Assembly (NCBI GenBank): GCA_016869515.1
Contig: VGDZ01000022.1
Coordinates: 1-43,354 of the forward strand
From: Alphaproteobacteria bacterium
Lineage (GTDB): Bacteria; Pseudomonadota; Alphaproteobacteria; VGDZ01
Length of the DNA: 43,354 nucleotides
Reading direction: 5' to 3'
Under the pieces are notes generated by a model that was given only the letters and a program-made list of their open reading frames with translations, did not search any database and was not told where the DNA came from. This document shows positions 11,297 through 41,743 of the stretch, in pieces; within the stretch, counting starts at the first letter, position 1, and every line of letters begins with the position of its first letter. The position numbers and the translations under genes are program-made.

Positions 11297-14011
11297 ATGG
11301 ACAAAAGCGTCTTCGCCTATATCTGGCGCCACAGCAAGGCCGAGCAGATCGTCATTCTCGGCCTGGTCCTGGTCAGCCAGTTCCTCTATTTCATCTCGCT
11401 GACGATCCCCAAGACCATCGTCAACGACGGCATCGAGGGCAAGGCCTTCAAGAAGGCGCCCGAGATTCCGTTCCTGAAGTTCGACCTGCCGCTGCCGGGC
11501 TGGCTGTTCGACCAGGGCTCGCTGCGGCTGTTCGACGGCTTCATGCTGGCGCAGTGGCCCTACCTGGTGGCGATGAGCCTGCTGTTCCTGACCATGGTCA
11601 CCGTCAACGGCCTGTTCAAGATGCAGATCAACACGCTCAAGGGCCGCATGGGCGAGCGCATGCTGCGCCGCCTGCGCTTCGAGCTTTACGACCGCATGCT
11701 GCGCTTCCCGCTGCCGCATTTCCGCAAGGTCAAGGCGGCCGAGATGGCCGGCATGGTCAATAACGAGGTCGAGCCGCTGGGCGGCTTCATCAGCGAGGCC
11801 TTCATCCAGCCGGCCTATCTCGGCGGGCAGGCCCTGACCGCGTTGTTGTTCATCATGCTGCAAAGCCTGGCGATGGGGGTGATCGTCATCGTCGTGCTGG
11901 CGGTGCAGGCCTTCGTCATCCCGCAACTGCGCAAGCGCATCCTGGTGCTGTCCAAGCAGCGCCAGCTTCAGACCCGGGCGCTGTCGGGCCGCATCGCCGA
12001 GACCGTCGACGGCAGCCAGGAGATCCACCTCAACGCCACCTCGAACTACGAACGCGCCGACATCGGCCGCCGGCTGGGCCAGATCTTCGTGGTGCGCTTC
12101 GAGCTGTTCAAGCGCAAGTTCCTGGCCAAGTTCCTCAACAACCTGCTGTCGCAGACCACGCCCTTCACCATCTTCCTGATCGGCGGCTACGGCGTGCTGT
12201 TCGGCGACATGCAGATCGGCAGCGTGGTCGGCGTGCTGCTGGCCTACAAGGACTTGCCGGGGCCGGTCAAGGAACTGATCGATTGGGACCAGCATCGCAC
12301 CGAGGTCCAGCAGAAATACGAGCAGGTGATCGAGCAGTTCGCGCCCGAGGGCATGATGGACCCGACGTTGCAGGCGCTGCCCGAGGGGCCGGTGCCGGCG
12401 CTTGCCGGCGATCTCGAGACGGTCGGCCTGACGCTGGCCGACGAGGGCGGGGCCAAGCCGTTGGACGCCCTGGCGTTGTCGCTGCCGTTGGGCACCAAGT
12501 TGGCGCTGGTCGGCCCGGCCACCGGCGGCCGCGACGTGCTGGCCCAGGTCTTGGCCCGCATCCTCCCGCCCACCGCCGGCAGCGCCAAGATCGGCGGCAG
12601 CGACCTGCTGGCGCTGCCGGAATCGACCGTCGGCGCGCGGCTGGCCTATGTCGGGCCCGATGTCTACCTGTTCCCGCTGTCGATCCGCGACAACCTGCTC
12701 TATGCGTTGAAGCGCCGGCCGATGACCAAGGCGCGCTACGCCGAGGCCGCTCTGGCCCAGCACGAGGCCGAACGCGCCGAGACCAGGCGCGCCGGCAACC
12801 CGGATCTCGATCCGACCGACGACTGGATCGACCGCGAGGCGGCCGGCGCGGTCGACAATGCCGGGTTGACGGCGCGGCTGGTGGCGATGCTGAAGGTGGT
12901 CGAGTTGGAGGAGGACGTCTACACCCTCGGCCTGCGCGGCACGATCGACCCCAAGGTCAAGCCCGACGTCGCCGCCGCCATCCTCGGCGCGCGCAACGCG
13001 CTGCACGAGACGCTGGCGGACCCGTCGCTGGCATCGCTGGTCGAGCCGTTCGACGCCAGCCGCTACAACCGCAACATGTCGCTGGCCGGGAATTTGCTGT
13101 TCGGCACCCCGGTCGGCAACGTCTTCAATCCCGACAATCTCGGCCGCCATCCGCTGGTGCTGGCGGCGCTGCGCCAGGCCGGGCTGGAGGCCGGCATTCT
13201 CGCCATGGGCGTCAAGATCGCCGAGACCATGGTCGAGCTGTTCGCCGACCTGGCGCCGGACAATCCGTTCTTCGAGCAGTACAGCTTCATCTCGGCGGAG
13301 GACCTGCCCGAATACCGCGGCCTGCTGCAGCGCCTGGCCGGCCGCGATCCTTCGCAACTGGGCGAGGACGAGCAGGCGCGCTTCACGGCGCTGCCGTTCC
13401 GCTATGTCGAGGCGCGTCACCGCTTGGGCCTGATCGACGCCGCGATGGAGGAACGCGTGCTGGCGGCCCGGCGCGCCTTCGCCGAAGCGCTGCCGCTGGA
13501 ACTGCGCGGCGCGGTCGCGTTCTACGACCATGCCGCCTACAATTCCGCCGCCACGCTGCAGGACAACATCCTGTTCGGCCGGCCGGTCTACGGCCAGGCG
13601 CGCAGCGCCGAGCGCGTCGGCCAGTTGATCAACGAGGTACTGGACGGGCTCGGCCTGCGCTCGCGGGTGATCGAGGTCGGGCTCGACTACAACGTCGGCA
13701 TCGCCGGCAAGCGGCTGGCGCCGGCCCAACGCCAGAAGATCGGCCTGGCGCGGGCGCTGATCAAGCGCTCCGACCTGCTGATCCTCAACGAGCCGACCTC
13801 GGCGCTCGACGCCGCGGCGCAAGTCCGCATCCGCGACAAGGTGCTGGCGGCGGCCGAGGGGCGGGGCGTGATCTGGTCGCTGGGCCGTCCGGCGCTGGCC
13901 GACGCCTTCGAGCAGGTGGCGCTGCTGCAGGGCGGCAAGCTTACGGCGCGCGGCACGCCGGCCGAGATCGCCGCCAATCCGCTCTACGCCGAATTCGCGG
14001 CCGCCAACTAG
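11297..14011 (+). CDS. ABC-exporter-like membrane protein with degenerate, expanded nucleotide-binding domain
   Basis: A 904-residue protein with an N-terminal type-IV exporter-like membrane domain (about six hydrophobic segments within residues 10-330) and a C-terminal ABC domain. The ABC domain is abnormal. The Walker A position reads GPATGGRD (residues 406-413), lacking the lysine and following Ser/Thr. The signature is LAPAQ, not LSGGQ. Walker B ends LILNEPTSALD, with Asn831 in place of Asp but Glu832 kept. The H-loop region GVIWSLGRP has no histidine. Between the Q-loop region and the signature lie about 300 extra residues. These repeat a DN(I/L)L(F/Y)G-like motif at residues 465, 599 and 756, normally present once. 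ATP hydrolysis is doubtful. The next gene, 21 bases on, is a cyclic-nucleotide-binding protein. Confidence 0.85.
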   Translation: MDKSVFAYIWRHSKAEQIVILGLVLVSQFLYFISLTIPKTIVNDGIEGKAFKKAPEIPFLKFDLPLPGWLFDQGSLRLFDGFMLAQWPYLVAMSLLFLTMVTVNGLFKMQINTLKGRMGERMLRRLRFELYDRMLRFPLPHFRKVKAAEMAGMVNNEVEPLGGFISEAFIQPAYLGGQALTALLFIMLQSLAMGVIVIVVLAVQAFVIPQLRKRILVLSKQRQLQTRALSGRIAETVDGSQEIHLNATSNYERADIGRRLGQIFVVRFELFKRKFLAKFLNNLLSQTTPFTIFLIGGYGVLFGDMQIGSVVGVLLAYKDLPGPVKELIDWDQHRTEVQQKYEQVIEQFAPEGMMDPTLQALPEGPVPALAGDLETVGLTLADEGGAKPLDALALSLPLGTKLALVGPATGGRDVLAQVLARILPPTAGSAKIGGSDLLALPESTVGARLAYVGPDVYLFPLSIRDNLLYALKRRPMTKARYAEAALAQHEAERAETRRAGNPDLDPTDDWIDREAAGAVDNAGLTARLVAMLKVVELEEDVYTLGLRGTIDPKVKPDVAAAILGARNALHETLADPSLASLVEPFDASRYNRNMSLAGNLLFGTPVGNVFNPDNLGRHPLVLAALRQAGLEAGILAMGVKIAETMVELFADLAPDNPFFEQYSFISAEDLPEYRGLLQRLAGRDPSQLGEDEQARFTALPFRYVEARHRLGLIDAAMEERVLAARRAFAEALPLELRGAVAFYDHAAYNSAATLQDNILFGRPVYGQARSAERVGQLINEVLDGLGLRSRVIEVGLDYNVGIAGKRLAPAQRQKIGLARALIKRSDLLILNEPTSALDAAAQVRIRDKVLAAAEGRGVIWSLGRPALADAFEQVALLQGGKLTARGTPAEIAANPLYAEFAAAN

Positions 14012-14032: not shown

Positions 14033-14488
14033 ATGAGCCTGAACGAAGAAGTCGAGCTGCTGCGGCGGATCACGCTGTTCGCCAAGATCGAGCCTTCCAA
14101 GCTCAAGCTGTTGGCCTTCACCTCCGAGCGCGTCATCTACGAGGCCGGCCAGGAGCTGTTCCGCCAGGGCGATGCCGGCGATTCGGCCTATGTCGTGATG
14201 GAGGGCCAGGCCGACGTGCTGGTCGACACCCCCAAGGGACCGCTGACCGTGGCGACGCTGGGCGTCAACGACATCGTCGGCGAGATCGCCATTCTCTGCG
14301 ACGTGCCGCGCACCGCCACGGTCAAGGCCAAGTCGCGGCTGGTGACGCTGCGCATCGCCAAGGACCTGTTCTTCCGCATGGTCACCGAGTTCCCGCAGAT
14401 GGCGATCGAGATCATGCGCGAACTGGCGCACCGGCTGGACCAGACCAACCGCAAGCTGCGCGAGGCCGCGGCCAAGCGCGCCGATTGA
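14033..14488 (+). CDS. Stand-alone cyclic-nucleotide-binding domain protein
   Basis: A 151-residue protein that is almost entirely one CNMP-binding domain of the CRP/PKA type. The phosphate-binding cassette VGEIAILCDVPRTATV is intact, including the Glu and the Pro-Arg-x-Ala that bind the cyclic phosphate and ribose. A short C-terminal helix rich in charged residues (RLDQTNRKLREAAAKRAD) follows. There is no helix-turn-helix, so it is not a transcription factor; it more likely senses a nucleotide and contacts a partner. It sits 21 bases after the ABC-like gene and shares its stop with the TTG start of the methyltransferase, so the partner may be the ABC-like protein (inference). Confidence 0.9.
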   Translation: MSLNEEVELLRRITLFAKIEPSKLKLLAFTSERVIYEAGQELFRQGDAGDSAYVVMEGQADVLVDTPKGPLTVATLGVNDIVGEIAILCDVPRTATVKAKSRLVTLRIAKDLFFRMVTEFPQMAIEIMRELAHRLDQTNRKLREAAAKRAD

Positions 14489-14976
14489 GCCGGCTCGATT
14501 CCTTCATCCGCCGGCTGGAGGCGCAGCGCGCCTGCCTCGATCACGTCGTCGGCCTGATTGCCGGGCGCGACGGTCCGGCGCTGGAGATCGGGCTGGGCAA
14601 CGGCCGCACCTACGACCATCTGCGCGCGCGCCTGGGCGACCGCGCGCTTTACGCCTTCGATCGCGAGCTCAAGGCCCATCCCGATTGCGTGCCGCCGGCC
14701 GAGTTCCTGATCCTGGGCGATTTTCGCGACGGCTTTCGGCTTGCATCGGTGCGGATCGGCCGGCCGGCGGTGCTGGCGCATTGCGATTTCGGCTCGGGCG
14801 ATCGCGCCGCCACCGCGGCGCTGGCGGCGTGGCTGGGGCCCGCGCTCAAGCCGCTGCTGGCGCCGGGCGCGATCGTGCTGTCCGACCAGGCGCTGGACGG
14901 CTTTCGCCCGCTGCCCTTGCCGGCGGGCGTGGCCGAAGGACGCTATTTCCTCTATCGCCACGGCGATGGCGGCTGA
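14485..14976 (+). CDS. Small class I SAM-dependent methyltransferase-like protein
   Basis: A 163-residue protein with the SAM-binding loop ALEIGLGNGRTYDHL (motif I) near residue 31 and an acidic turn at ALYAFDRELKAHPDC. The fold is short and lacks an obvious substrate domain. The start is TTG at 14485 in a TTGA overlap with the preceding stop; the N-terminus MSRLDSFIRRLEAQRACLDH then reads directly into the fold, and no better ATG exists in frame. It is coupled to the cNMP protein upstream and lies six bases before the reductive dehalogenase. Substrate unknown. Confidence 0.85.
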   Translation: MSRLDSFIRRLEAQRACLDHVVGLIAGRDGPALEIGLGNGRTYDHLRARLGDRALYAFDRELKAHPDCVPPAEFLILGDFRDGFRLASVRIGRPAVLAHCDFGSGDRAATAALAAWLGPALKPLLAPGAIVLSDQALDGFRPLPLPAGVAEGRYFLYRHGDGG

Positions 14977-14982
14977 GCCGCC

Positions 14983-17175
14983 ATGTTGCTGCGGCCTCGC
15001 TCCCATGATCGGCCCTTCCATCTCGGCCCGCATGCGCTCGAGACCCTTGCGCGCGACGCCGGCCCGATCGCGCGCGAATCCGCGCTTCCGCCCGCAACCT
15101 CTACCGCTCCTCCGCCGGCCGATACCGACGCGCTCGGCCGCGCCCTCGCCCGCTATCGCGCCGTGCTGGCCGGGTTTCTCAAGGGGGAAAAAGCGCAAAC
15201 CCAGGCCCCCTTGCCGGCCGACCTCGCGCTGCGTGCGGCCGATCTCAAGGGCGGGGCCTATTTTCTCGACGCCGACGGCGCCGGCATCTGCGCCCTGCCC
15301 GAGAACGCTTGGTTGGCGGACAAGTCTCCGCCGGCGCATGGCCACGCGCTCGTCGTGCTGGTCGAATATCCGCGCCGGCCCGAACCGGGCAATCCCGCCC
15401 ATGACTGGGTCGGCCAGGATTTGACGGCCGCCGCCGCCGATCTGCGCGCGGTCGAAATCGCCGCCTGCCTGTCCGAGTATCTTCGCCGCCTCGGCTTCGA
15501 TGCCCGCGGCCATGTCGCCGGCCAAAGCCTGCTCGATCTCGACCGCCTCGCGGTTCTCGCCGGCCTGGCGGTGCGCGCGGGCGAGCGGCTGGTCCATCCC
15601 GTCATCGGCGCGGATTTCGCGCTGGCCGCGGTCTCGACCGATTGCGCGCTGGCGGTCGATCTGCCGCTGCGCGCCGATGTTGCCAGGCTCGGCGGCCTTC
15701 GCCAGTGGTGGGGCATCGCCGGCGCGCGCTCGGGCCGCGAGCGCGCCCGCCGCGCCCGCCGCGCGACCCATCTTTCGCCGCATGCGATGGAGCGGGTCAA
15801 GCGCGTCGACCGCCCGACCACGCTGATCCTCGACGACCAGATCCCGCGCGTGCCCAAGCGCGCCGCCTTTTTCCAGCGCGCTTTCCACGGCGATCTCGGC
15901 GACAAGGCCCGGCGCGAACGCACCCGCTTCGCCTTCAAGACCCCGTTCTCCTTCGCCCTGCTGCAGATCATCCGCGCGCTGGTGCCGCTGCAGGACGGGC
16001 CGGTGGCGACGCCCGCGCAAGCTCCCAAGGACGACCCAGCGGCGCTGGCCCGCGCCGTCAAGTCGCTGTCCCATCTGCTCGGTTCCGACCTCACCGGGAT
16101 TTGCCGCGTGCCGCGCTATGCCTGGTTCTCGCACAAGGAAGACGGCAGCCCGATCGCGCCCTATCACCGCAACGCCGCCGTGATGCTGATCGACCAGGGC
16201 TACGACACCATGGAAGGCGCCAGCGGCGACGACTGGATCTCGGGCGCGCAGTCGATGCGGGCCTATCTGCGCGGCGCGCTGATCGCGGGTGTGATGGGCG
16301 AGTTCCTGCGCGCCTGCGGCCATCCGGCGCGGGCGCAGACCAATGCCGACAGCGACGTGCTGCAGATTCCGCTGATCCTGTGGGCGGGCCTGGGCGAGAT
16401 GAGCCGGATCGGCGAGCTGGTGCTCAATCCCTTCGTCGGCCCGCGCTTCAAGTCGGTGGTGCTGACCACCGATCTCGATTTGGCGCCCGACCGGCCGATC
16501 GATTTCGGGCTGCAGCGGTTCTGCGGCGAGTGCCGCAAATGCGCCCGCGAATGTCCCTGCGATGCCATCCCCGCCGGCGGCAAGGTGATGTTCAACGGCT
16601 ACGAGACCTGGAAGCCCGACGTCGAGCGCTGCACGCGCTATCGCCTGACCAATCCCAAGGGCTCGGCCTGCGGGCGCTGCATGAAGGCCTGTCCGCTCAA
16701 CAAGACGGTCGACGCCGACGGCGCGCTGGCGATCCGGCTGTGGAGCCGGCTGGGCATCGCCGCCGGCTGGCTGAAGCCGATCCTGGTGCCGGTGGCGACG
16801 CGGCTGGACGATTGGCTGGGCAATGGGCGGATCAACCCGATCAAGCGCTGGTGGCTGGATTACGAGTTGATCGCGGGCAAGGCGGTCGAGCCGCGCGGCA
16901 CCAACCGCCGCCAGCTCGATCCCGGCCGCAGGCTCGATCCGGCGACGCAGAAGCTGGCGCTGTTTCCGGCGGCGCTGATGCCGCCGCCCGACCGCCAGGC
17001 GGCGATGCCGCTCGCGCGCAAGGCCGGGCTGGCAGCGGCCGAACGCGCCGAAAGCCCCGAGGCCGCGCGCCGGCGCATCCAAGCCGGCGGCGCGCCGCCC
17101 GAAGACTGGCGCCCAACCCCGCCCGAGGGCGGCGCCCCAACTCAAGCCGCGATCGGCAATCCCTACCGACGCTGA
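14983..17175 (+). CDS. Cytoplasmic reductive dehalogenase (NpRdhA-type, cobalamin and two 4Fe-4S)
   Basis: A 730-residue RdhA-family protein without a Tat or Sec signal, so cytoplasmic like the catabolic enzyme NpRdhA. A degenerate copy of the B12-binding fold (about residues 87-230) precedes the catalytic copy (about 345-510). Paired motifs are DGAGICALPENAW against SDLTGICRVPRYAW, and HDWVGQDLTAAAADLRA against DDWISGAQSMRAYLRG. The iron-sulphur module follows: CGECRKCARECP with cysteines 514, 517, 520 and 524, then Cys550 and CGRCMKACP with 563, 566 and 570. Tyr428 and Lys490 fall where NpRdhA has Tyr426 and Lys488 (recalled from the literature), so reductive removal of halide is plausible. 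No dedicated electron-transfer gene is adjacent. ATG 14983 is six bases after the methyltransferase stop. Confidence 0.85.
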   Translation: MLLRPRSHDRPFHLGPHALETLARDAGPIARESALPPATSTAPPPADTDALGRALARYRAVLAGFLKGEKAQTQAPLPADLALRAADLKGGAYFLDADGAGICALPENAWLADKSPPAHGHALVVLVEYPRRPEPGNPAHDWVGQDLTAAAADLRAVEIAACLSEYLRRLGFDARGHVAGQSLLDLDRLAVLAGLAVRAGERLVHPVIGADFALAAVSTDCALAVDLPLRADVARLGGLRQWWGIAGARSGRERARRARRATHLSPHAMERVKRVDRPTTLILDDQIPRVPKRAAFFQRAFHGDLGDKARRERTRFAFKTPFSFALLQIIRALVPLQDGPVATPAQAPKDDPAALARAVKSLSHLLGSDLTGICRVPRYAWFSHKEDGSPIAPYHRNAAVMLIDQGYDTMEGASGDDWISGAQSMRAYLRGALIAGVMGEFLRACGHPARAQTNADSDVLQIPLILWAGLGEMSRIGELVLNPFVGPRFKSVVLTTDLDLAPDRPIDFGLQRFCGECRKCARECPCDAIPAGGKVMFNGYETWKPDVERCTRYRLTNPKGSACGRCMKACPLNKTVDADGALAIRLWSRLGIAAGWLKPILVPVATRLDDWLGNGRINPIKRWWLDYELIAGKAVEPRGTNRRQLDPGRRLDPATQKLALFPAALMPPPDRQAAMPLARKAGLAAAERAESPEAARRRIQAGGAPPEDWRPTPPEGGAPTQAAIGNPYRR

Positions 17176-17362: not shown

Positions 17363-20300
17363 ATGAGCCCGGAACGGCCGAGGGCAGGTTTCGTCGCTGC
17401 GGTCTGGCTGGCGCTTGGCGCTTGCCAGGCCGGAGATGCGCTCGGGCCGGCGCCGGCCGATCCGCCCTTGGCGATGGCCTCGCGCATCGGCGTGCCGCCG
17501 CGCGGCATCGCGGATGTCCTCGGGCCGATCGGCCACGCCCTGGCCCAACCCACCCTGCCCGACACCGAGAGCGAACGACTCGATCCGTCGCGCTGGACGC
17601 GCAATTTCGAGACCACAAGGCAATTGGCCTGGCGCGCCCGCGGCCGCGGCGACGTGCAGGGCCAGATCGCGTTCCTCGAACAGTTCCTGGGCTCGGGCTC
17701 GCTCAACGAAAACGGCGTCGCCATGGTCGGGATCGACCTGGCGGCATCCTATGCCGTTCTGGGCGACATGGACCGCGCGCGGGTGCGGCTGGCGGCCGCG
17801 CTGGACATCGCCGAGCGCAACCAGTTCGTCGAGGTGCAGGTGCTGGCGCATCAGGCCGAATGCCTGATCCGGACCCAGCTCGGCCTCCCGGCCGAGGCCG
17901 AGACTAGCCTGGCCAAGGCACGGGCCGGCATCCGCGTCATCCGCCGCAGCAGCGACAAGACCCGCAGCGACGTGCTTTCGATCTACCAATTCTTCCTGCC
18001 CTATTTCGAGGCCCAGAGCGAACGCTGCCTGGCCGAGTTGGCGCGCGTCCGCGGCCGACCGGCCGAGGCCGAGACGCATGCCCGCGCCGCACTGGATTGG
18101 ATGCTGACCCAGCGCGAACGCTGGCCGGCGCGCATCGCCTGGCAGGCAAACCCCGGCATCTGGGCGCCGATCCGCGGCGGCGGCAGCCACCGCGATTCGG
18201 TGACGCTGGACCGGCTGCTGATCGAGACCGACGACGCCCGCATCGCCCTGGCCGATAGCTTGCGCGTCCAGGGCAAGCTGGCCGAGGCCGAGACTGCTTT
18301 GCGCGAGACCGTGCGCGCGGTGACGGCGCGCGCCGGCGCCGCCAGCATCGAAAGCGCGACGCGGTTGTTGCCGCTGGGCGCGCTGCTGGCCGAGCGCGGC
18401 CGCTTCGCCGATGCCCGCCGCCTGGCGCGCGCGGCGTTGGCGATCCATGCCCGCCACGGCACGCCCCAACGCCATTGGAGCGTGGTCGAGGCGCGGTTGC
18501 TGGAGATCGAGACTCTGGCGGCGCAGAAGCGCTGGCCGCAGGCGGGCGAACTCTGGGCGCGGCTCGAATCCGATCTTGCGGCCGATCCGATCGGCCGCGT
18601 CCGCTTCGTCGAACGCAATCCGGTGCGCATCGCGCTGGCGCTCGAAACCGGACGCGCGGGCGAGGCGCTGGCCTGGGCCACGGCCGCCCGGCGCGAGGCC
18701 GAGGCCGCTTTCGGCGCATTGCATCCCGCCAGCATCGAAGCGGCGATGCTGGAAGGTCTGGCGCTGGCGGCGAACGGCGATCCGCGCGCCGCGCTCGAAC
18801 GGCTCGATGCGGCGCTGCCGCTGCTGCTCGAGCGCCTGGCCGAGGTCGACGACGAAAGCGGCCGTTACGGTGCCGCCGCGCGCCGCCAACGGCGGCTGAT
18901 CGAAGGCACCATGCTGGTGGCGGCGGCCGATCCGGCTCGCGCCGAGGCGCTGTTCGTGCTGGCCGAACGGGTCAAGGCCAAGGCGACCGATCGCGCCATC
19001 GCCCAGGGTACGGCGCGGCTGGCCGCGCGCTCGGACCGGCTGGGCGCGCTGATCCGCAGCGAACAGGACATCCGCCGCCAGGCCCGCGCCGCCGAGACCG
19101 CGCTGGCGCGGCTGGCCGGTACCGAAGACTTCGCGCAACGCGCGCCGGCGCTGCGCGCCGGAATCGAGCGTCTCCAGGGCGAGGCCGCGATGCGGCGGGC
19201 CGAGATCGAGCGTGGCTTCCCGCGCTATGCCGAGTTGATGTCGCCGCGGCCGCCGGGCTTTGCCCAGGTCCAAGCGATGTTGCGATCGGACGAAGCCATG
19301 ATCGCGTTTTATTCGGCCCAGCGCTCCACCCTGGTCTGGGCGATTCCCAAGCACGGCCCGGTCCGCTTCGCGCTGGTCGAGTTGGAGGCGGCCGAATTGG
19401 AACGCCGCGTGGCCGAACTCAGGCGCGCGGTCGATTCCGGCGCCGCCACGGTCGGCGCGCTGCCGCCGTTCGATGTCGCCCTGGCGCACGATCTCTATCG
19501 CCGCCTGCTGGCTCCGGTCGAGCCGGGTTGGGGCGCGGCCGAGCGCCTTTCGGTGGCGCCCCATGGCGCGCTGGCCATGCTGCCTTTAGGCCTGCTGCCG
19601 ACCGCTCCCGAAATCGGCACCAAGGGGGCGATGCCGTTCGTCGAGTATCGTTCCGTGGCCTGGCTGGCGCGGCGGGCGGCGATCGCCCAAGTGCCTTCGG
19701 CCACCGCGCTGGCGGCGCTGCGTGCGGTGCCTCCGGCCGAAGGCGAGCGGGCCGACTTCATCGGCCTGGGCGATCCGGCCTTCGACCGTGTCCGCGCCGC
19801 CCAAGCCGAGACCGCCGGCGATCCGGCCCTCCGCTTGGCGCTGCGCGGCGTGCGGGCGGTGGCGGCGGGCGAGGCGGCGCCGGACGGGCGGCTTTCGCGG
19901 CGCTTGGGCGAGCTGGCGCCGCTGCCCGATACCGGCTTCGAATTGACCGAGATCGCGCGCGCGCTGGGAGTCGACCCGGCGCGCGCGGTGCTGACCGGCG
20001 CTGCCGCCCATCCCGGCGTGACTCGGCAGGCCGAATTCGGTCGCCACCGCGTCATCGCCTTCGCCACCCATGGCCTGGTGGCGGGCGACATCGAGGGGCT
20101 GTACGAGCCGGCGCTGGCGCTGAGTCCGGCCGAAGGCGGCGGCTCGGGCGATGGGTTGCTGACTGCCTCGGACGTACTGGATCTCAGACTCGATGCCGAT
20201 TGGGTGGTGCTGTCGGCCTGCAACACCGCCGCCGCGCAAGGCGAAGGCGCCGAGGCGATTTCGGGCCTCGGCCGCGCGTTCTTCTATGCCGGGGCGCGGG

Positions 20301-20536
20301 CGCTGTTGGTTTCGAACTGGGCGGTCGAAACGGTTTCGGCGCGGCAGTTGACCACGACCCTATTCCGCGCCCAGGCCGCGAATCCGGGTCTGGGGCGCGA
20401 TCGCGCCCTGCGCCGCGCGATGCTGGACATGATCGAGCGCGGCGAGGGTCATGATCCGGCCAAGGGCCGCGCCGCCTATGCCTTGGCCCATCCCCTGTTC
20501 TGGGCGCCGTTCGCGCTGATCGGCGACGGCGGCTAG
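17363..20536 (+). CDS. Large TPR-like/CHAT-domain caspase-type protease, predicted lipoprotein
   Basis: A 1057-residue protein. A short signal ends in the lipobox LGAC with the acylated cysteine at residue 21, so export and lipid anchoring are predicted. Residues about 80-560 are alpha-helical with TPR-like repeats (for example GEALAWATAARREAEAAFG). Residues about 560-640 are charged helix. The C-terminal 330 residues form a CHAT (caspase HetF-associated with TPR) domain. The catalytic pair is intact: His903 in IAFATHGL and Cys953 in VVLSACNTA, followed by GLGRAFFYAGARALLVSNW. The family cleaves proteins; the substrate is unknown and no obvious partner is adjacent. The TAG stop lies inside repeat copy 2. 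Confidence 0.92.
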   Translation: MSPERPRAGFVAAVWLALGACQAGDALGPAPADPPLAMASRIGVPPRGIADVLGPIGHALAQPTLPDTESERLDPSRWTRNFETTRQLAWRARGRGDVQGQIAFLEQFLGSGSLNENGVAMVGIDLAASYAVLGDMDRARVRLAAALDIAERNQFVEVQVLAHQAECLIRTQLGLPAEAETSLAKARAGIRVIRRSSDKTRSDVLSIYQFFLPYFEAQSERCLAELARVRGRPAEAETHARAALDWMLTQRERWPARIAWQANPGIWAPIRGGGSHRDSVTLDRLLIETDDARIALADSLRVQGKLAEAETALRETVRAVTARAGAASIESATRLLPLGALLAERGRFADARRLARAALAIHARHGTPQRHWSVVEARLLEIETLAAQKRWPQAGELWARLESDLAADPIGRVRFVERNPVRIALALETGRAGEALAWATAARREAEAAFGALHPASIEAAMLEGLALAANGDPRAALERLDAALPLLLERLAEVDDESGRYGAAARRQRRLIEGTMLVAAADPARAEALFVLAERVKAKATDRAIAQGTARLAARSDRLGALIRSEQDIRRQARAAETALARLAGTEDFAQRAPALRAGIERLQGEAAMRRAEIERGFPRYAELMSPRPPGFAQVQAMLRSDEAMIAFYSAQRSTLVWAIPKHGPVRFALVELEAAELERRVAELRRAVDSGAATVGALPPFDVALAHDLYRRLLAPVEPGWGAAERLSVAPHGALAMLPLGLLPTAPEIGTKGAMPFVEYRSVAWLARRAAIAQVPSATALAALRAVPPAEGERADFIGLGDPAFDRVRAAQAETAGDPALRLALRGVRAVAAGEAAPDGRLSRRLGELAPLPDTGFELTEIARALGVDPARAVLTGAAAHPGVTRQAEFGRHRVIAFATHGLVAGDIEGLYEPALALSPAEGGGSGDGLLTASDVLDLRLDADWVVLSACNTAAAQGEGAEAISGLGRAFFYAGARALLVSNWAVETVSARQLTTTLFRAQAANPGLGRDRALRRAMLDMIERGEGHDPAKGRAAYALAHPLFWAPFALIGDGG

Positions 20537-35503: not shown

Positions 35504-36853
35504 ATGAACGCGACGGCGATCTGGGACGAGGTAAGGCAGAAGCTGCGCTCCGAATTCGGCGAGGCGACGTTCAATGCCTGGCTGCGCGGACTCAAGCTGA
35601 TCGAGACCGACAACGGCGCCGTCACGCTGGCGGTGCCGACGCGCTACACCCGCGACTACGTCGTCACCCATCACGTCGATCGCATCCTGGCGCTGTGGCG
35701 CCAGCGCGACGCCAATGTCCACGGCGTCGATCTGGTGGTGCAGCGCAATGCGCAATCGCCCGCGAGCGAACCCGCGATCGAAGCCGCAAGCGCCGAGGCC
35801 GGCGACGCCGCTGGCATGGACACGCCCTCCTCGCCGCTCGACCCGCGCTTCACCTTCGACAATTTCGTGGTCGGCAAGTCGAACGAATTCGCCCACGCCG
35901 CGGCACGGCGCGTCGCGGAATCGCCGGTGGTGCCCTACAATCCGTTGTACCTCTACGGGCCGGTCGGTTTGGGCAAGACCCATCTGATGCACGCCATCGC
36001 CTGGCACATCCGCGCCCGCAATCCCAAGCGCAAGGTGATCTATCTTTCCTCCGAGCGCTTCATGTACCAGTTCATCCGGGCGCTGCGCTTCAAGGACACC
36101 GTCGCCTTCAAGCAGCAATTCCGCTCGGCCGACGTGCTGATGATCGACGACGTCCAGTACATCGCCGGCAAGGAATCGACCCAGGAGGAGTTCTTCCACA
36201 CCTTCAACGCCCTGGTCGACCGCAACCGCCAGATCATCATCTCGGGCGACCGCTCGCCGATCGAGCTCGACGGCATGGAGGAGCGCCTGCGCTCGCGCCT
36301 GGGCTACGGCCTGGTCGCCAACATCCTCCAGGCCGACTACGAACTGCGGCTCGGCATCCTGCAGTCCAAGGTCGAGCAGATGGCGGTCAAGCTCGAGGTG
36401 CCCAAGGGCGTGCTCGAATTCCTCGCCCACAGCTTCACCGCCAGCGTGCGCGAACTCGAAGGCGCCTTCAACCGCCTGATCGCGCACCATCAGCTGGTCG
36501 GCCGGCCGATCAGCCTGGAGATGGCGCAGGAAGTGCTGCGCGACATCCTGCGCACGGTCGAGCGCCGTGTCACCATCGACGACATCCAAAAGCGCGTCGC
36601 CGAGCACTACAACATCCGCCTGGCCGACATGCATTCGCCGCGCCGGGCCCGCGCCGTCGCTCGCCCGCGCCAAGTCGCGATGTGGCTGGCCAAGCAGATG
36701 ACGCCGCGCTCGCTGCCCGAGATCGGCCGCAAATTCGGCGGCCGCGACCACACCACGGTCATGCATGCGGTGCGCAAGGTCGACGAATTGCGGGCCGCCG
36801 ACCGCGCCTTGGCCGAAGACCTCGAGATGCTGCGCCGCATCTTGGAAGGTTAG
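35504..36853 (+). CDS. dnaA: Chromosomal replication initiator DnaA
   Basis: A 449-residue AAA+ initiator that binds DnaA boxes and opens oriC. Domain I (about 1-85) begins [23 protein letters not shown] variable linker (about 85-110) follows. Domain III has Walker [15 protein letters not shown], Walker [11 protein letters not shown] and sensor residues around ISGDRSP. Domain IV carries the DNA-binding signature [15 protein letters not shown] near the end. The ATG at 35504 gives the usual N-terminus [10 protein letters not shown]. The dnaN gene follows after 149 bases. Confidence 0.97.
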
Positions 36854-36927
36854 CCGAATCAATAGCTTATGTGGCATCCCGACCGCCCGCCATCGGCCCG
36901 CGGAAAGTCGGTTGCGCCTGCCCTTTC

Positions 36928-36936
36928 TGCTATACT
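36928..36936 (+). promoter_or_regulatory. Extended -10 promoter before dnaN
   Basis: TGC followed by TATACT is an extended -10 element 66 bases upstream of the dnaN start. No good -35 hexamer is placed correctly, which is tolerated in extended -10 promoters. It would let dnaN-recF-gyrB be expressed separately from dnaA. Confidence 0.5.
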
Positions 36937-37002
36937 GAAGTGCGTCGAATCGTCGCCCACAGCGGCCCCGGCGCGGAATAGAACGCAACCCATGGTTCGG
37001 CC

Positions 37003-41743
<4,741 letters not shown>

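Follow-up and report, generated by a model that had tools for sequence, protein, structure and literature searches.

What does an ABC exporter-like protein do once the residues for ATP hydrolysis are altered throughout its family? Roughly one third of sampled alphaproteobacterial genomes carry such a family, and databases label its members as ABC transporter ATP-binding proteins, a label that stands although these residues have changed family-wide. The question is raised here by an open reading frame at positions 11297–14011 (+) of the window, by which we mean the whole 43,354-nucleotide stretch of DNA analyzed. The frame encodes a protein of 904 amino acids with the following parts.

11297–12340 (+): ABC-exporter membrane domain, residues 1–348 (Pfam ABC_membrane, AF2 model, Foldseek)
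12389–12613 (+): N-terminal half of the ABC domain core, residues 365–439 (Pfam ABC_tran 390–499; model strands 372–380, 389–397 and 401–405)
12512–12535 (+): degenerate Walker A, GPATGGRD, residues 406–413
12614–12964 (+): helical unit copy 1, comprising the Q-loop segment, the N466 motif and helices to residue 556 (profile matches to canonical exporters and copy 2)
12962–13246 (+): helical unit copy 2, residues 556–650, with the N599 motif (profile matches to copy 3 and canonical exporters)
13247–13438 (+): linker between copies 2 and 3, residues 651–714, with a conserved RHRLG motif (alignment)
13439–13714 (+): helical unit copy 3, residues 715–806, with the N757 motif, immediately before the signature (profile match to canonical exporters; element order like copy 2)
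13715–13729 (+): degenerate ABC signature, LAPAQ, residues 807–811
13775–13792 (+): degenerate Walker B, LLILNE, residues 827–832
13793–14011 (+): C-terminal part of the ABC domain core, with the D-loop, the H-loop position (G863) and the stop codon

The architecture is that of a type IV ABC exporter, with both the ABC_membrane domain and the exporter fold in place. Pfam assigns ABC_membrane to residues 85–313 (whole-protein E 7.3e-13) and ABC_tran to two stretches, the better one at residues 390–499; the corresponding genome-level ABC_tran matches at 12461–12793 and 13535–13801 indicate that the ABC domain is split by an extra segment. The whole-protein AF2 model (pLDDT 85, pTM 0.79) contains long transmembrane/coupling helices, and a Foldseek search with this model returned type IV exporters as the best PDB matches, TmrAB being among the best single-chain ones. 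The protein thus keeps a full membrane domain, as originally predicted. The type IV (B-family) exporters MsbA, TmrAB and P-glycoprotein, which are the best sequence and fold matches, share its membrane-domain fold and the order of elements in the nucleotide-binding domain (NBD). In contrast to these exporters, the family lacks GK[ST], LSGGQ and, mostly, the Walker B Asp, and possesses approximately 297 extra residues that hold two further helical units, as well as a cyclic-nucleotide partner.

A single-sequence search of genome contigs returned ordinary ABC proteins only, and it was a whole-genome search that recovered the family: of 96 alphaproteobacterial genomes, 30, counting that of the window, have full-length relatives at 29–60% identity. 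A profile search placed homologs in 97 of 289 sampled Alphaproteobacteria, usually one per genome, and in a phylum-wide sample every match fell within this class except one partial match in another. The gene lies on plasmid records in Sinorhizobium meliloti (pSymB), R. etli (p42e), Azospirillum and Ruegeria, among others; phage records yielded no match for it. A second split ABC-like match in the window's own genome (contig C2, a 967-aa frame) was rejected as a paralog, being absent from the protein search, and is presumably UvrA.

Motif statistics were compiled from 56 dereplicated family members, with a separate alignment of 30 rows. The motif changes reported for the window protein are present: Walker A reads GPATGGRD, the signature LAPAQ and Walker B LLILNE (N831, E832), and Gly863 occupies the H-loop His column. 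None of the catalytic motifs expected of a type IV exporter, namely Walker A GxxGxGK[ST], LSGGQ, and the Walker B Asp with its catalytic Glu, holds across the 56 members. GK[ST] and LSGGQ occur in 0/56 each, the Walker B Asp is kept in 7/56 (Asn in 30/56) and Glu in 27/56. Canonical homologs, which the original prediction of lost ATPase motifs had named as counter-evidence, were sought by homolog collection and alignment, and 0 of the 56 are canonical. Two details of that prediction need qualification. Loss of the Walker A Lys is true of this protein, which has Arg, but the exchange of Lys for Arg is common in the family (27 Lys and 19 Arg, hence a positive residue in 46/56); more telling is position 413, Ser or Thr in the canonical motif, which is Asp or Glu in 47/56 members, Ser in 2 and Thr in 0. 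Likewise, the H-loop His is absent here but present in 19/56 relatives. The D-loop Asp (D838) is kept in 52/56, and L807 of the signature is invariant.

Judged from these motifs, the family probably no longer works as an ordinary ATP-driven pump; the retained Walker A Lys or Arg, Walker B Glu and H-loop His may be compatible with ATP binding without hydrolysis. A slow or ATP-binding-only exporter of a glycan precursor, regulated by the cyclic-nucleotide subunit, is unlikely in our estimation. The positive residue at the Walker A Lys column and the D-loop Asp would suit such an exporter, as would the glycan context of the loci and the glycosyltransferase co-occurrence described below, but the Mg-binding Ser/Thr position is acidic in 47/56 members, the Walker B Asp is lost in 49/56 and no member has LSGGQ.

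Lost catalytic motifs could also mark a decaying pseudogene of an ABC exporter, a reading to which we attach next to no credence. Frames are intact and full-length in nearly all carriers, the motif pattern is family-wide, and dN/dS is 0.00–0.27 in every region across eight close pairs. Purifying selection is thus strong, and alike in the membrane domain, the NBD and the extra copies, which refutes decay. The N(L/I)LFG motif has an invariant Asn in all three copies (466, 599 and 757), found in 56/56 members, and the membrane domain is strongly conserved, its invariant residues clustering in stretches that include GERMLRRLR...EVEPLGGFI in the alignment. With the catalytic motifs lost and the repeat Asn residues invariant, constraint appears to have moved to the repeated motifs and the membrane domain.

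Closer examination of the extra segment points to a probable origin. Walker A and the signature are separated by 401 residues, versus 104 in a normal exporter from this genome, a difference of approximately 297 residues that agrees with the roughly 300 originally placed between Q-loop and signature. The three DN(I/L)L(F/Y)G-like motifs described there are real (RDNLLYA with N466, AGNLLFG with N599 and QDNILFG with N757) but differ in detail, as the copy 2 motif carries Gly where D/E is expected (E598 in the family consensus) and the copy 1 motif ends in YA, not YG. The copies were compared by profile–profile alignment with 60 column-permuted controls per pair. Copy 3 matches copy 2 with E = 1.2e-17 over 83 columns (best permuted 0.0055). 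Matches with copy 1 span 23–31 columns, at E 7.3e-6 for copy 3 (best permuted 0.016) and 2.3e-5 for copy 2 (best permuted 0.0009), and the helices following the copy 1 motif match copy 2 at E 4.7e-5 (control 0.0049) and copy 3 at 6.2e-4 (control 0.0027). A canonical profile, built from the Q-loop-to-signature region of seven normal exporters of the window's genome, matches copy 1 at E 1.4e-11 (control 0.029), copy 2 at 2e-4 (best permuted 0.0034) and, with the signature excluded, copy 3 at 3.4e-8 (control 0.013). These comparisons, between copies and against canonical exporters, show that the helical unit is present three times, in line with the predicted triplication of a helical-domain motif. 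Modeled alone, copies 2 and 3 (pLDDT 92) show the same element order at an offset of 158–159 residues; a Foldseek search of this isolated model against the PDB gave no significant match (best E 0.57), so that the helical-domain origin rests on the profile comparisons and not on fold. In the linker between them, R707 of the RHRLG motif is invariant and H708, R709 and L710 are each conserved at at least 90% (alignment A1, 30 rows). Parsimoniously read, the Q-loop/helical unit would have been multiplied locally, copies 2 and 3 being the closest pair.

Directly downstream of this gene lie two further genes that recur beside it in other genomes.

14033–14488 (+): cyclic-nucleotide-binding protein, 151 aa, single domain, with the motif VGEIAILCDVPRTATVKA (Pfam cNMP_binding, E 2e-18)
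14485–14976 (+): Methyltransf_17 SAM-dependent methyltransferase, a recurrent neighbor (Pfam PF12692, E 1.8e-52)

The first is a constant partner of the ABC-like protein. It adjoins the ABC-like gene directly downstream, or is fused to it, in 28/29 relatives, and among 20 extended loci it is conserved in 20/20 and is the only gene conserved in all of them. In nearly all partners the phosphate-binding cassette reads GEIAILCDVPRTA or differs from it slightly, its Glu and Arg are preserved and the Arg is followed by Thr; both the cNMP_binding domain and the GE...R(T/S)A cassette of a cyclic-nucleotide-binding protein are therefore present. Thr after the cassette Arg resembles cGMP-binding PKG sites. 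In L050 and L053 a single protein contains the ABC-like part and, at its C-terminus, the cyclic-nucleotide-binding part, and Azospirillum and Ruegeria have fusion-sized single genes whose C-terminus is similar to the partner. The strongest argument that the two proteins act together is their fusion in several lineages. In L070 the fused gene has a cyclase gene as its immediate neighbor, and cyclase genes also occur in the R. etli and Mesorhizobium loci; class III cyclases gave 15 matches in the window's own genome. Adenylate/guanylate cyclase-type genes were observed at L075:1686–3452 and 18883–20223, L099:643–1986 and L070:9663–10934. About half of the loci have the Methyltransf_17 gene next to the partner, with two tandem copies in L058 and L068.

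The partner genes bear on another possibility, that the protein is the degenerate half of a heterodimeric exporter in which a normal ABC half-transporter encoded elsewhere supplies the ATP site, as in TmrAB or TM287/288. TmrAB is among the best single-chain Foldseek matches, seven other ABC_membrane proteins are encoded in the window's genome, and the family resembles heterodimeric exporters with a degenerate site in its non-consensus signature, Walker B and H-loop. Known degenerate partners of such exporters, however, keep Walker A, whereas with 0/56 GK[ST] this family has lost both halves of the ATP site. Moreover, the cyclic-nucleotide-binding gene alone is conserved throughout the 20 loci, and no canonical ABC partner subunit is conserved across these loci, a comparison that covers genes within the loci and not distant ones. 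We consider this arrangement quite unlikely.

The original prediction missed both this partner and the surface-polysaccharide context described below, which are new here. Its proposal of a repurposed, regulated NBD that is not a pump fits with a conserved and sometimes fused predicted cyclic-nucleotide-binding partner; its specific suggestion of a channel or receptor is conjectural. CFTR and SUR are repurposed ABC proteins in which the ABC scaffold serves regulated, non-pump functions, and we propose them as analogs. The window protein differs from them as a bacterial half-size homolog with a triplicated helical unit, whose proposed control is by a cyclic-nucleotide-binding subunit and not by an R domain or Kir subunits. 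SbmA/BacA peptide transporters have an exporter-like membrane fold that works without ABC ATP hydrolysis and have no NBD; the present family, in contrast, keeps an NBD, altered and enlarged.

The surroundings of the pair point to surface sugars. Glycosyltransferase genes lie beside it in 16/20 loci, often with a histidine phosphatase. Across 289 genomes, co-occurrence of the ABC-like gene with a marker glycosyltransferase is near-perfect: 90 have both, 7 the ABC-like gene alone, 2 the glycosyltransferase alone and 190 neither (Fisher p 1.4e-63, genomes being counted as independent despite their relatedness). In 26 of the 90 genomes with both, the marker was not found as a neighbor, so that co-occurrence is not a matter of linkage alone. 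The window's own genome (97% complete assembly, 166 contigs) is one of the 7 and yielded no marker glycosyltransferase; the association with the glycan cluster discussed next thus holds at the family level and fails in this genome. In Rhizobium, Sinorhizobium and Azospirillum, genes for a YejABEF-like importer accompany those for the glycosyltransferases and the ABC-like protein (L099:643–8113, L100:13254–19347, L102:1–5196).

A regulatory scaffold or receptor without transport, in which a membrane anchor relays cyclic-nucleotide signals to the glycosyltransferases or the YejABEF-like importer, would draw on the adjacency of YejABEF-like genes to the ABC-like gene in several lineages and on glycosyltransferase genes that co-occur even when unlinked. 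The strong conservation of the membrane domain, including GERMLRRLR...EVEPLGGFI, suggests more than an anchor, and we regard a scaffold as very improbable.

An uncharacterized surface polysaccharide of S. meliloti, PPP, protects against phazolicin and requires nine genes located between smb21252 and smb21271 (PMC10128002). A mutant of the smb21265 glycosyltransferase is reported to have an 8-fold lower phazolicin MIC, 0.18 vs 1.47 µg/mL, and insertions in the adenylate cyclase gene cyaA are depleted as well (PMC10128002). The LacI regulator of this region is SM_b21272 (PMC11387232). Locus L074 on pSymB has a LacI-type gene after one for an FkbM-type methyltransferase; if this LacI-type gene is SMb21272, counting back gives the partner as SMb21270, the ABC-like protein as SMb21269 and the first glycosyltransferase as SMb21265. 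By this count the PPP cluster would contain the homolog and its partner, inside the smb21252–smb21271 interval, which does not imply membership among the nine PPP genes. The PPP study treats the cluster as one for glycan biosynthesis (PMC10128002). Searches of the open literature found no paper naming SMb21269 or SMb21270 or discussing the ABC-like gene or its partner, and a search on R. etli locus tags returned nothing. As the S. meliloti gene, msbA2/SMb21191 (PMC3687685) was rejected, since its position on pSymB is near 938 kb and that of the homolog is 841.7–844.4 kb.

The co-occurring glycosyltransferases and the PPP locus probably point to glycan assembly or export, with the substrate deduced from this company. 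Altered motifs, a tripled helical unit, a constant partner and co-occurrence with surface-sugar genes together suggest that the protein is probably a signal-controlled part of polysaccharide assembly and not an ordinary pump. Our preferred explanation, to which we would give about an even chance of being right, is that the protein is an ABC-fold component of surface-glycan assembly or export, degenerate as an ATPase and controlled by cyclic nucleotides. On this explanation, a family with the type IV exporter fold would have abandoned ATP-driven pumping, as its motif drift suggests, and the three Q-loop/helical units would enlarge its cytoplasmic face. Control would enter through the single-domain cyclic-nucleotide-binding protein, adjacent or fused at the C-terminus. 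Binding of cAMP or cGMP, the presumed ligands, would change how this partner docks on the enlarged helical platform, its putative docking site, and the altered docking might in turn switch the conformation of the membrane domain and so gate it. The co-occurring glycosyltransferases would make a surface glycan or its lipid-linked precursor, whose passage or assembly would be the output, PPP being the candidate in S. meliloti. A narrower version, possible but doubtful, is an ABC-fold permease or flippase that provides a path for surface-glycan precursors and is gated by cAMP or cGMP on the added subunit, docked to the triplicated helical domain, in place of ATP hydrolysis.

The triplicated helical unit and constant partner offer a test case for the rewiring of an ABC machine from ATP-driven to signal-controlled operation. 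The family may also be an overlooked point at which cyclic nucleotides control a surface polysaccharide with ties to antimicrobial-peptide tolerance and, probably, to symbiosis in rhizobia.

Elsewhere in the window, 14983–17175 (+) encodes a protein of 730 aa that weakly matches double 4Fe-4S cluster domains and that we take to be a reductive-dehalogenase-type iron-sulfur protein, and 17363–20536 (+) encodes a 1057-aa TPR and CHAT (caspase-like protease) protein. Finally, dnaA and gyrB lie within 35504–41743, placing the window close to a dnaA/gyrB origin-type region.
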